A stretch of DNA of 64,000 nt, taken from NCBI RefSeq assembly GCF_900100155.1, contig NZ_FMTP01000004.1, positions 186,001-250,000 on the forward strand, given 5' to 3'. This DNA is from Ancylobacter rudongensis. Lineage in GTDB: Bacteria; Pseudomonadota; Alphaproteobacteria; Rhizobiales; Xanthobacteraceae. Below are positions 14,584 to 28,412 of the stretch, one piece after another (position 1 is the stretch's first letter; each line of letters opens with the position of its first letter). The translations under genes were made by a program, and so were the position numbers. The notes beneath the pieces were generated by a model that worked only from the letters and a program-made list of their open reading frames with translations, was not told the origin of the DNA and made no database searches.

Positions 14584-15006
14584 GGGTCCCCACCGGCGTC
14601 AGACACTCGCCGGGCCGGGTTCGGCCGACGAGCCTGTGCTGGGTCCCGGATCGGCGCGGCGCGATGCGCCGCTGGTCCGTGACACGGAAGGGGGCGGCGC
14701 TGCCACTCGAACGCCCTCATGGCCGGGCTTGACCCGGCCACCCAGGCTTTCGCTGCCGTGCCGTTGCAAAGGCTGGGTCCCCGGGTCAAGCCCGGGGATG
14801 AGGGTGTGTTGGCGGGGCGGTCGGACTGGGGTTCGGCCGCTCCGTTTCCCGGACAAGCCGCACGGCGCGCGGCGCCGATCCGGGACCCAGGGGCCCCTCC
14901 GAGGACGGGAATCCGTGGGTGTCCGGTCCGAGGCATGGCATGATGGTGTGCTGACGGGGCGGTGGAACCGGGCTCGCGATGTGGCAGTGGAGCGGGAGTG
15001 CGAGCG
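14584..15006. other. Repeat-filled intergenic gap, no gene seen
   Basis: These 423 bp hold fragments of two dispersed repeat families: a complete paired palindrome at 14714-14804, and copies at about 14638-14690 and 14845-14905 of a GGGACCC...GGATCGGCGC type sequence that recurs in the GTA gaps. No credible gene is present. Confidence 0.6.
14714..14804. repeat. Family A paired palindrome, copy 1
   Basis: The left arm has CCGGGCTTGACCCGG inside CTCATGG...CACCCAG; the right arm has CTGGGTCCCCGGGTCAAGC...GGATGAG; a variable ~28-bp spacer lies between. The two arms are mutually inverted, so the whole unit can fold back. It recurs at 19176, 20400, 20712, 20868, 26742, 26899, 27644 and, diverged, at 45640. 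Confidence 0.85.
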
Positions 15007-19175: not shown

Positions 19176-19268
19176 CCCCTCAGGACCGGGCTTGAGCCGG
19201 CCACCCAGACTTTCGGCCTCGCCGCTACGGAAACGCTGGGTCCCCGGGTCAAGCCCGGGGATGAGGGG
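19176..19268. repeat. Family A paired palindrome, copy 2
   Basis: Both arms are present (CCGGGCTTGAGCCGG...; CTGGGTCCCCGGGTCAAGC...GATGAGG). It stands between the portal and the small membrane protein gene of the GTA cluster. Confidence 0.85.
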
Positions 19269-20399: not shown

Positions 20400-20491
20400 C
20401 CCTCATGGCCGGGCTTGACCCGGCCACCCAGACTTTGGCGGTGAGTTGTCGGAAAGGCTGGGTCCCCGGGTCAAGCCCGGGGGATGAGGGG
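20400..20491. repeat. Family A paired palindrome, copy 3
   Basis: Complete left and right arms with a spacer ACTTTGGCGGTGAGTTG-like; located between prohead protease and capsid genes. Confidence 0.85.
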
Positions 20492-20711: not shown

Positions 20712-20805
20712 CCCCTCATGGCCGGGCTTGACCCGGCCACCCAGACTACTGGCCGGGCGCTGTCGGAAAGGCCGGGTCCCCGGGTCAGGCCCGGGGATGA
20801 GGGGG
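20712..20805. repeat. Family A paired palindrome, copy 4
   Basis: Complete arms; the spacer (ACTACTGGCCGGGCGCTG) is the same as in copy 5, so copies 4 and 5 are recent relatives. Confidence 0.85.
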
Positions 20806-20867: not shown

Positions 20868-20959
20868 CCCTCAGGACCGGGCTTGACCCGGCCACCCAGA
20901 CTACTGGCCGGGCGCTGACGGAAAGGCTGGGTCCCCGGGTCAAGCCCGGGGATGAGGGG
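20868..20959. repeat. Family A paired palindrome, copy 5
   Basis: Shares its spacer with copy 4; lies about 135 bp before the capsid start codon. Confidence 0.85.
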
Positions 20960-26293: not shown

Positions 26294-26701
26294 ATGGCGG
26301 CGCAAAAGGGCAAGGACCTCCTGCTGAAGATCCATGACGGCACCGCCTATGCCACCGTGGCCGGGCTGCGCTCGCGGCAGATCGCCTTCAATGCCGAGCC
26401 GGTGGACGTGACCCATGCCGAGAGCGCCGGCCGCTGGCGCGAGCTGCTCGCCGGGGCGGGGGTGAAGCGGGCTTCGGTGGCGGGCTCGGGCGTGTTCAAG
26501 GACGGCGCGTCGGACGCGCTGATCCGCCAGAGCTTCTTCGACGGCACGATCCGCAACGCCCAGATCGTGGTGCCGGACTTCGGCACAATCGCCGGGCCGT
26601 TCCAGATCACCGCCCTCGAATTCGCCGGCGAGCACGACCGCGAGGTGACGTTCGACATCGCGCTGGAGAGCGCCGGCGAGATCACCTTCGCCGCGCTCTG
26701 A
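26294..26701 (+). CDS. GTA major tail (tube) protein (gp9)
   Basis: A 135-residue tail-tube subunit (TP901-1 major tail family): KGKDLLLKIHDGTAYATVAGLRSRQIAFNAEPVDVT, ESAGRWRELLAGAGVKRASVAGSG and the FQITALEFAGEHDREVTFDIALESAG C-terminal strands. AAAGGAG precedes the ATG. It is set apart from gp8 by the GANTC block and from gp10 by two family A repeats, so it may be its own transcription unit. Confidence 0.88.
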   Translation: MAAQKGKDLLLKIHDGTAYATVAGLRSRQIAFNAEPVDVTHAESAGRWRELLAGAGVKRASVAGSGVFKDGASDALIRQSFFDGTIRNAQIVVPDFGTIAGPFQITALEFAGEHDREVTFDIALESAGEITFAAL

Positions 26702-26741: not shown

Positions 26742-26833
26742 CCCTCATGGCCGGGCTTGACCCGGCCACCCAGCACGTCGCCGGGCCGTCGGCGGGAAGG
26801 TTGGGTCCCCGGGTCAAGCCCGGGGATGAGGGG
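26742..26833. repeat. Family A paired palindrome, copy 6
   Basis: Complete arms; spacer CACGTCGCCGGGCCGTC is shared with copy 7. It lies in the 334-bp gap 26702-27035, which holds only these two repeats. Confidence 0.85.
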
Positions 26834-26898: not shown

Positions 26899-26989
26899 CC
26901 CTCATGGCCGGGCTTGACCCGGCCACCCAGCACGTCGCCGGGCCATCGGCGGGGAGGCTGGGTCCCCGGGGTCAAGCCCGGGGATGAGG
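26899..26989. repeat. Family A paired palindrome, copy 7
   Basis: Nearly identical to copy 6, including the spacer, so the two are a local duplication. Confidence 0.85.
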
Positions 26990-27035: not shown

Positions 27036-27401
27036 ATGGCCAACCGGCATCGCGGCGAGATTTCCGCCGAGCTCGACGGGCGCCGGCGCACGCTGGTGCT
27101 CACGCTGGGCGCGCTGGCCGAGCTGGAAGACGCCTTTGGCGCCGACGACCTGGTGGCGCTGACCGGGCGTTTTTCCACCGGCCGGCTTGCCGCGCGCGAC
27201 GCCATCCGCCTGCTCGCCGCCGGGCTGCGCGGGGCGGGCGAGGCCGTCACCGAGGATGAGGTGGCGCGCATGACCACGCCGGGCGGCGCGGCGGGCTTCG
27301 CCCGGCTCGTCGGCGAGCTGATCGCGGCGACGTTCGGCGGCGGGGAGGGCGGGGAGCGGGCCGACCGCCCTTTGCCCGATCCTCCGGAGACGAGGGGATA
27401 G
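27036..27401 (+). CDS. GTA tail assembly chaperone-type protein (gp10, GTA TIM family)
   Basis: A 121-residue protein matching the gene-transfer-agent gp10 family: MANRHRGEISAELDGRRRTL, LGALAELEDAFGADDLVAL, the helical RLAARDAIRLLAAGLRGAG and the C-terminal GFARLVGELIAATFG. It is thought to help the tail tube assemble on the tape measure, like lambda gpG. A CCCTTTG slippery heptamer at 27368, near its 3' end, lies in the right frame to extend it by -1 frameshifting into gp10.1. Confidence 0.85.
   Translation: MANRHRGEISAELDGRRRTLVLTLGALAELEDAFGADDLVALTGRFSTGRLAARDAIRLLAAGLRGAGEAVTEDEVARMTTPGGAAGFARLVGELIAATFGGGEGGERADRPLPDPPETRG
27368..27374 (+). promoter_or_regulatory. Putative -1 ribosomal frameshift site (CCCTTTG)
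   Basis: In the gp10 frame the bases read C CCT TTG, an exact X XXY YYZ slippery heptamer. A -1 slip moves ribosomes from codons starting at multiples of three to the gp10.1 frame, which is open from here to 27619. GC-rich sequence (27401-27432) downstream could form a stimulatory structure. Confidence 0.55.
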
Positions 27402-27460
27402 GGCGCGCGCCGGCCTTTCCGGGGGAGGGCGGTCCATCGCCCTTCCCCTGGCAGGCGGCG

Positions 27461-27619
27461 ATGGCGCTCGGCTTCGGCCGGCTGCGGCTCTCCTCGCAGG
27501 CATTCTGGGCGCTGACGCCGCGCGAACTCGCCGCCGCGCTGCGTCCCTTCACCGGGGAGGCACGGGCGCCGCTTGGGCGGGCCGGCCTCGCCGCGCTGAT
27601 GGCGCGGTTTCCGGACTGA
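27461..27619 (+). CDS. GTA tail assembly chaperone (gp10.1, rcc01693/TIGR02216-type)
   Basis: From the only in-frame ATG (27461) it has 52 residues: MALGFGRLRLSSQAFWALTP, then RELAAALRPF and a final LAALMARFPD, which match the short phage protein found after gp10 in GTA clusters. Homologues usually start further upstream with an FPW motif; that motif is encoded here (FPWQAA just before 27461), but no start codon precedes it. This suggests it is made mainly as a gp10-gp10.1 fusion through the frameshift at 27368. Standalone translation from 27461, preceded by GGCAGG, remains possible. Confidence 0.65.
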   Translation: MALGFGRLRLSSQAFWALTPRELAAALRPFTGEARAPLGRAGLAALMARFPD

Positions 27620-27643: not shown

Positions 27644-27735
27644 CCCTCTTCCCCGGGCTTGACCCGGGGACCCAGCGCCGCCGCCCGCACCCGGTCTCAA
27701 GTCTGGGTGGCCGGGTCAAGCCCGGCCATGAGGGC
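27644..27735. repeat. Family A paired palindrome, copy 8 (inverted)
   Basis: The same unit in opposite orientation: CCCCGGGCTTGACCCGGGGA arm first, GGCCGGGTCAAGCCCGGCCA arm second. It lies between gp10.1 and gp11. Confidence 0.85.
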
Positions 27736-27812: not shown

Positions 27813-28412
27813 ATGGCTGCGGAGGATAGCGAGGCGTTCGACGACGGGCTGACGGTGGAAATCACAGCCGATACCAGCGCCTTCCGGCGCGAGATCGCGG
27901 AAGCGGAGCGGCTGGCGCGGGGCTTCGGCCGGGCGGTGGGCGATGCGCTGACCGGCGCGACCCTGAAGGGCCGCGAGGCCGACGACGTGCTGCGCTCGCT
28001 GGCGAGCCGTCTGTCCTCGCTGGCGCTCGACATCGCCTTCAAGCCGCTGGAACAGGGGCTTTCCGGTCTTCTTCAGGGCGCGCTCGGTGGGGTTTCCGGC
28101 TTCGCCAGCGGCGGGGCGTTCGCGCACGGGCGCGTCACCCCCTTCGCCCAGGGCGGGGTGGTGGCGGCGCCGACCTATTTCCCGATGGCCGGCGGCCAGC
28201 TCGGGCTGATGGGCGAGCGCGGGGCGGAGGCGATCCTGCCGCTGGCGCGCGGCGCCGATGGCCGGCTCGGCGTCGCCGCGCAGGGCGGGGGACGCGCGAG
28301 CCAGGTGACGGTGAATGTCGCCACCCCCGACCCGGGCGCCTTCCGCCGCTCCGACGCCTATCTCGCCGGCCTGATCGCCCGCGCCGTGGCGCGCGGGGAA
28401 AGGAGCCTGTGA
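27813..28412 (+). CDS. GTA tail tape measure protein (gp11)
   Basis: A 199-residue protein. The N-terminus (VEITADTSAFRREIAEAERLARGFGRAVGDAL) and the Gly-rich C-terminal block (FASGGAFAHGRVTPFAQGGV, GLMGERGAEAILPLARGADG) are typical of short tape measures in RcGTA-like elements. Its length sets tail length, and at ~200 residues it implies a short tail. CAGGAGG precedes the start. gp12 begins with no gap. Confidence 0.85.
   Translation: MAAEDSEAFDDGLTVEITADTSAFRREIAEAERLARGFGRAVGDALTGATLKGREADDVLRSLASRLSSLALDIAFKPLEQGLSGLLQGALGGVSGFASGGAFAHGRVTPFAQGGVVAAPTYFPMAGGQLGLMGERGAEAILPLARGADGRLGVAAQGGGRASQVTVNVATPDPGAFRRSDAYLAGLIARAVARGERSL

Follow-up and report, generated by a model that had tools for sequence, protein, structure and literature searches.

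Our findings suggest that gp10 and gp10.1, two small tail genes of a gene transfer agent (GTA) cluster in a genome of the genus Ancylobacter, very probably constitute a single frameshift gene of the lambda G/GT kind, in which a -1 shift would give a fusion protein of 194 aa. Such a fusion had been proposed in the original prediction, and comparison now lends it strong support: gp10.1 lies in the -1 frame relative to gp10 in 106 of 107 junctions that lack a start codon, and a C CCT candidate slip site occurs in 27 of 27 Ancylobacter junctions.

The gp10 and gp10.1 genes in the window

The window, that is, the whole 64 kb stretch of DNA analysed here, contains an RcGTA-like head-tail cluster. 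Family profiles give the order gp9 (major tail protein), gp10 (PF11836), gp10.1 (PF09550, rcc01693 family) and gp11 (tape measure), so that the ORF pair sits between the major tail protein and tape measure genes, the tape-measure match being below the curated cut-off. The features, all on the plus strand, are as follows.

26294..26701, plus strand: gp9, major tail protein (PF06199, E 1.7e-44; TIGR02126, E 1.2e-34)
27036..27401, plus strand: gp10, tail assembly chaperone 1, 121 aa, zero frame, stop TAG at 27399-27401 (PF11836, GTA-gp10, E 3.6e-28; phrog_2115, tail protein)
27342-27349, plus strand: second Shine-Dalgarno-like stretch, GGGGAGGG (from the sequence)
27351..27356, plus strand: Shine-Dalgarno-like GGGGAG, 11 nt upstream of the heptamer (from the sequence; in all slip classes anti-SD pairing peaks some 10 nt ahead of the slip site)
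27368..27374, plus strand: candidate slippery site C CCT TTG, slip codon CCT at 27369-27371, CCC in the -1 reading (from the sequence and comparison)
27374..27619, plus strand: -1 segment that the shift would add, 81 aa, stop TGA at 27617-27619 (open reading)
27398..27400, plus strand: ATA, at the position of the ATG/GTG in the ATGA/GTGA overlap of start-class relatives, with GGAG 8 nt upstream; rival start (from the sequence)
27440..27619, plus strand: PFPW and gp10.1 domain (PF09550, rcc01693 family, E 3.8e-20; TIGR02216, E 2.6e-21)
27813..28412, plus strand: gp11, tape measure protein (NF058675, RcGTA_tape, E 6.2e-54, 183 bits, below the cut-off of 220)

A structure model of gp10 reached a pLDDT of 83.8, and a comparison of its fold with the PDB gave no match under E 0.001.

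Two further observations concern the layout of the cluster. An inverted repeat is present in eight places (14725-14793, 19188-19256, 20411-20478, 20724-20792, 20879-20947, 26753-26821, 26910-26979 and 27655-27723), its GGGCTTGACCCG-like arms separated by about 57 nt, apparently mostly between GTA genes; two of the copies occupy the gp9-gp10 gap and another follows gp10.1, and the window holds 17 matches to the arm against 0.96 expected. The segment 22434-24325, which separates the capsid gene from the gp6-like connector gene, carries genes unrelated to the GTA, among them one for a trypsin-like protease (PF00089) on the minus strand, a low-molecular-weight phosphatase on the plus strand (a weak match) and a pair of similar small ORFs that begin with signal-like sequences.

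At the junction itself, what had been read earlier from the DNA was confirmed on all three points: the gp10 codons CCT (27369-27371) and TTG (27372-27374) make CCCTTTG at 27368-27374 read as C CCT TTG, the -1 frame is open from this heptamer through gp10.1 to 27619, and gp10.1 has no start codon before FPW. The -1 frame is free of stops from 27260, 139 nt upstream of the gp10 stop, to the TGA at 27617-27619, and carries the PF09550/TIGR02216 domain. No ATG, GTG or TTG occurs in it from 27260 to the start of the PF09550 domain, and its first ATG, at 27461, lies past FPW (27443-27451). By arithmetic, the predicted fusion would join residues 1-113 of gp10 to the 81 residues of the -1 segment.

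The heptamer alone proves nothing, since CCCTTTG is found near its chance frequency in the window (seven copies on both strands, 5.45 expected); a chance origin is not rejected by frequency and was rejected only by comparison. In the 11 GTA ORFs of the window (3727 codons, counted from the listed ORF starts, some of which are too long), both codons are rare, with CCT used for 11 of 234 Pro codons and TTG for 14 of 380 Leu codons, and a single one of the 30 Pro-Leu pairs is CCT-TTG, namely the heptamer itself.

Conservation of the putative slip codon in Ancylobacter

PF09550 is present in 27 of 30 genomes of the genus, and all 27 junctions show both the -1 relation of gp10.1 and an in-frame C CCT within the overlap. 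The context of this codon varies: 13 junctions have CCCTTTG, one CCCTTTA, four CCCTTTC, three AAACCCT and six another NNCCCT, so that the exact heptamer is missing from 14 and five hold no XXXYYYZ heptamer at all. The exact heptamer had been proposed as the signal, and its loss in close relatives with intact genes had been named beforehand as evidence against the shift. Such loss does occur, but neither the CCT codon nor the frame relation is lost with it, and the conserved unit is the putative CCU slip codon, predicted to be able to slip to CCC in several contexts, not the exact heptamer. No start precedes FPW in 17 of the 27 junctions; an ATG or GTG is nearby in seven, and only a TTG or a distant start is available in three. 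In eight of them gp10 ends with TAG, which makes the overlap codon ATA.

In the linker between the gp10 stop and PFPW, PFPGEG-like units vary in number among Ancylobacter species (L003, L014, L019, L024 and 27410-27450 of the window). Three Ancylobacter genomes also have secondary PF09550-like loci (L028, L029 and L030), perhaps prophages, whose gp10-like and gp10.1-like ORFs overlap in the -1 relation with no ATG, GTG or TTG start within 130 nt.

The junction in related gene transfer agents

The wider sample, drawn from Ancylobacter, from relatives in its family, order and class and from two phage-collection records, comprised 302 loci, of which 299 were analysed (gp10 or gp10.1 was not found in L060, L150 and L235) and 279 were distinct, a few prophage-like loci (L028-L030) and the two phage-collection records included. 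Relative to gp10, gp10.1 stands in the -1 frame in 260 distinct junctions, in the +1 frame in 16 and in the same frame in three. Among the 107 junctions classed as start-less, meaning that no ATG, GTG or TTG was found before FPW in a search reaching 130 nt upstream of the gp10 stop, 106 are -1; junctions with an available start divide into 154 (-1), 15 (+1) and three (zero).

The 260 -1 junctions fall into five arrangements, assigned by rules set in this analysis. The first (85 junctions) has no slip site, and 80 of its members carry a nearby ATG or GTG, mostly as ATGA/GTGA; Rhodopseudomonas, Afipia, Tardiphaga and Parvibaculum belong here, and in Rhodopseudomonas- and Afipia-like relatives the ATGA/GTGA restart is present and the slip motif absent. 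The second and third together (119 junctions) have CCCTTT (27), AAACCC (39) or another NNCCCT (53), placed in the second arrangement a few codons ahead of the gp10 stop, often with GCCGCAG five bases further on, and in the third directly against the stop, which GCCGCAG or GCCGCGG then follows (Mesorhizobium, Ochrobactrum, Nitratireductor, Phyllobacterium and some Agrobacterium). In the fourth (46 junctions; Hyphomicrobium, a Stappia MAG) gp10 runs into PFPW, typically with C CCT TTC, and the fifth (10 junctions) has GGGAAAG, once GGGAAAA. The candidate frameshift signal extends far beyond this one cluster. Six GTA relatives (L129, L149, L168, L222, L254 and L275) share a PGK* end of gp10 with GGGAAAG directly 5' of the stop.

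The phase of CCCT was compared in the 214 junctions whose gp10 stop precedes PFPW; the 46 PFPW-embedded junctions among the 260 were excluded because the PFPW codons alone give CCCTTT in that phase. In the gp10 tail, defined as the part of its last 75 nt behind the last -1 stop, CCCT occurs in phases 0, 1 and 2 in the numbers 118, 6 and 8, against 13, 8 and 103 in the gp10 body. Within the last 90 nt of gp10, 118 in-frame CCCT lie behind the last -1 stop and three before it. The same set includes 66 start-less junctions, and 61 of these have a candidate slip site (17 CCCTTTN, 15 AAACCCN, nine GGGAAAN and 20 other NNCCCT); of the five without a listed candidate, four show by eye an in-frame C CCC, and L199 has none. 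At two loci (L013 and L239) a -1 stop abuts AAACCCT, with no ATG, GTG or TTG between it and FPW. When 92 junctions were aligned on GCCGCR in the -1 frame (the first if several, CCCT not being required), C was found at positions -9, -8 and -7 in 79, 74 and 78 of them and T at -6 in 70.

The base before the gp10 stop differs between the classes. Where no slip site is present, A or G precedes TGA in 74 of 81 junctions (four more end in TAA/TAG); with a slip site at least three codons upstream it does so in 26 of 58 (24 more end in TAA/TAG), a difference with a Fisher p of 2e-9 when relatedness is ignored. The 47 junctions with the slip site next to the stop were left out because there the site itself fixes that base. 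Slip sites were also set against nearby ATG/GTG starts in the 260 junctions: 136 have a slip site and no start, 39 both (of 175 slip-bearing junctions), five neither and 80 a start only, with relatedness ignored and the 46 PFPW-embedded junctions counted as slip-bearing. A tree built from the cores of gp9, gp10 and gp10.1 requires at least 26 changes of the slip state, and 11 well supported independent pairs gave on average 6.1 agreements and 0.6 disagreements with a median p of 0.07; the slip-versus-start association is thus not significant once relatedness is discounted, and its tree-corrected form is only suggestive.

Upstream and downstream elements

A downstream RNA structure had been expected as stimulator. 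This expectation went unsupported: when the 50 nt behind the slip site were folded at 129 junctions, mean z ranged from -0.17 to -0.51 and no class differed clearly from dinucleotide shuffles. The comparison supported an upstream Shine-Dalgarno-like element instead. In the CCCTTT, NNCCCT and AAACCC classes, anti-SD pairing is strongest 10 nt ahead of CCCT, and in the GGGAAAG class 12 nt ahead of the AAAG part, which is 9 nt from the first base of the heptamer; the main peak ranges from -4.2 to -6.5 by slip class. Gaps of 9-12 differ from gaps of 22-41 in each class (Wilcoxon p 6e-7, 5e-9, 5e-6 and 6e-3).

Mean pairing also beats a synonymous-codon null at gaps of 8, 10 and 12 (z -6.0, -6.9 and -7.4, relatedness ignored; the null at gap 4 is an edge artefact and was not used). 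Single loci are mostly unexceptional against this null (median p 0.28-0.36), and the encoded amino acids account for part of the SD-like signal. In the start class, pairing is strongest 3-4 nt before the overlap start, and measured relative to the overlap codon it reaches -3.5 there, against -2.2 at best in 77 slip-bearing junctions.

Proposed mechanism

The anatomy of the junction, the frame relation, the conservation of CCU, the lack of ordinary starts and the position of the SD-like element are read directly from the DNA; from them we infer the occurrence of the shift, its efficiency and the tRNA that slips. Most ribosomes would terminate at the gp10 stop and release the 121-aa chaperone, and a minority would be held back by the Shine-Dalgarno-like stretch about 10 nt upstream. 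In these the tRNA-Pro would re-pair from CCU to CCC, one base back, an event that would be common to all CCCT contexts. With CCCTTTG, as in this genome, the leucine tRNA could re-pair too, from UUG to UUU; with AAACCCT the preceding codon could do so from AAC to AAA, imperfectly at the third base; and at TGA-adjacent sites or at CGC CCT CCG only the proline tRNA would re-pair. The shifted ribosomes would read on in the -1 frame and complete the 194-aa gp10-gp10.1 protein, a presumable counterpart of lambda gpGT, which by gene order and analogy with lambda may likewise link the tape measure and the tail tube.

We also find it somewhat probable that this holds across the Alphaproteobacteria, in that an SD-stimulated -1 shift would make the tail chaperones of GTAs, its core being one proline tRNA that exchanges CCU for CCC, whether or not a second tRNA re-pairs as well, and that lineages would repeatedly have exchanged this site with GGGAAAG, a PFPW-internal site or an ATGA restart.

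Alternative explanations

It is improbable that gp10.1 is instead made separately, by termination and reinitiation at the overlap, where a non-standard codon (ATA in this genome, CTG or TTG elsewhere) would serve as the start, as ATG or GTG would in the Rhodopseudomonas- and Afipia-like relatives. Start-class relatives do use ATGA/GTGA, the ATA at 27398-27400 is preceded by its GGAG, the other seven ATAG junctions of Ancylobacter keep by eye GGAGG, GGAG or GGAAG there, and in 40 start-less junctions with an upstream slip site anti-SD pairing has a weak maximum (-3.1) 7 nt ahead of the overlap codon. The main SD-like peak, however, is that of the slip site, slip-bearing junctions do not keep to A or G in front of TGA (C 28, G 25, T 4, A 1), and in the 46 junctions whose gp10 stop lies at or behind PFPW an overlap start would cut into PFPW.

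A start of gp10.1 at the internal ATG 27461, yielding a protein without FPWQAA, would have an in-frame ATG just past FPW, and two annotated GTA-like records do start the downstream ORF behind FPW; yet FPW is part of the conserved domain, with PF09550 matched from position 1, and this Met is Ile in many relatives, which makes such a start very doubtful. We give even less credence to the view that the conserved CCCT is a mere peptide motif of the gp10 tail, or chance, and that gp10.1 goes unexpressed in this lineage. A recurrent xPPxPQ pattern in the gp10 tail and the chance frequency of the heptamer agree with it, but the strong phase bias and the rare codons argue against it, as do the presence of PF09550 in 27 of 30 genomes of the genus and the retention of GCCGCAG in Mesorhizobium, Ochrobactrum and Phyllobacterium, although it lies behind the gp10 stop there. 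A -1 shift at the CCU codon remains the preferred reading.

Comparison with known systems

GGGAAAG, found in some of the GTA relatives, is lambda's own slippery heptamer. In E. coli dnaX, a Shine-Dalgarno sequence about 10 nt upstream of the slippery site favours the -1 shift. The dnaX site resembles the present one in the position of this stimulator and differs in its slippery codons; in addition, no downstream hairpin is supported here, and the predicted product is extended, not truncated. As far as the accessible part of PMC5009743 describes it, the lambda G/GT tail chaperone frameshift (reference: Xu, Hendrix and Duda 2004) also has a small ORF pair ahead of the tape measure gene, a -1 overlap near the end of ORF1 and an XXXYYYZ site, whereas the present genes belong to a gene transfer agent, the main candidate site is centred on CCU with variable partners, and gp10.1 is a PF09550 protein. 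The same portion of that source states that GGGAAAG is highly shift-prone in E. coli and that a proline codon near the stop is the shift site in a tail gene of Listeria phage PSA, as proposed here, with a shift of +1 at CCC_UGA in PSA against -1. A -1 shift was likewise argued from open -1 frames and a motif conserved across relatives, but in a phage, with a GTTTTT motif and in other families.

In the available sections of PMC11409702, g10 (pfam11836) and g10.5 of RcGTA are called 'tail chaperone 1 and 2' and treated as separate genes; by family (rcc01693 family, TIGR02216) they correspond to gp10 and gp10.1. PMC8601537, in the part available, describes programmed frameshift as usual in tail chaperone genes of R. 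capsulatus phages. The original prediction knew of no such shift for GTAs, and the literature searched, mostly without subscription papers, did not report, for any RcGTA-type GTA, a frameshift linking gp10 to gp10.1; the nearest was PMC10299305, whose accessible part puts forward a +1 shift within a hydrolase gene of what may be a Wolbachia GTA and names gpG/gpGT chaperone genes of phage WO. The words 'frameshift' and 'chaperone' do not occur in the main texts of PMC7296036, PMC6821227 and PMC6209664. A phage collection was considered as an independent source of annotated frameshifts and set aside, as it yielded two gp10-matching records only, both GTA-cluster-like and with no joined genes. 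Frameshifted tail chaperones are already known, and what is new here is the proposal for gp10/gp10.1 of a GTA, argued from anatomy and comparison.

Implications

The gp10-gp10.1 fusion is probably a missing protein of many gene transfer agents, and frameshifting in GTA tail genes may be common. A site that is based on CCU, has an SD upstream and shows no clear structure downstream would offer a simple natural system for single peptidyl-tRNA slippage, and the exchange of frameshift and restart among relatives would supply ready-made comparisons. If the reading for the Alphaproteobacteria as a whole is true, it would add a slippage motif that departs from the standard XXXYYYZ pattern, together with evidence of selection on the chaperone:fusion ratio in domesticated GTAs; a delicate translational ratio kept under selection would be evidence that these GTAs still assemble tails.
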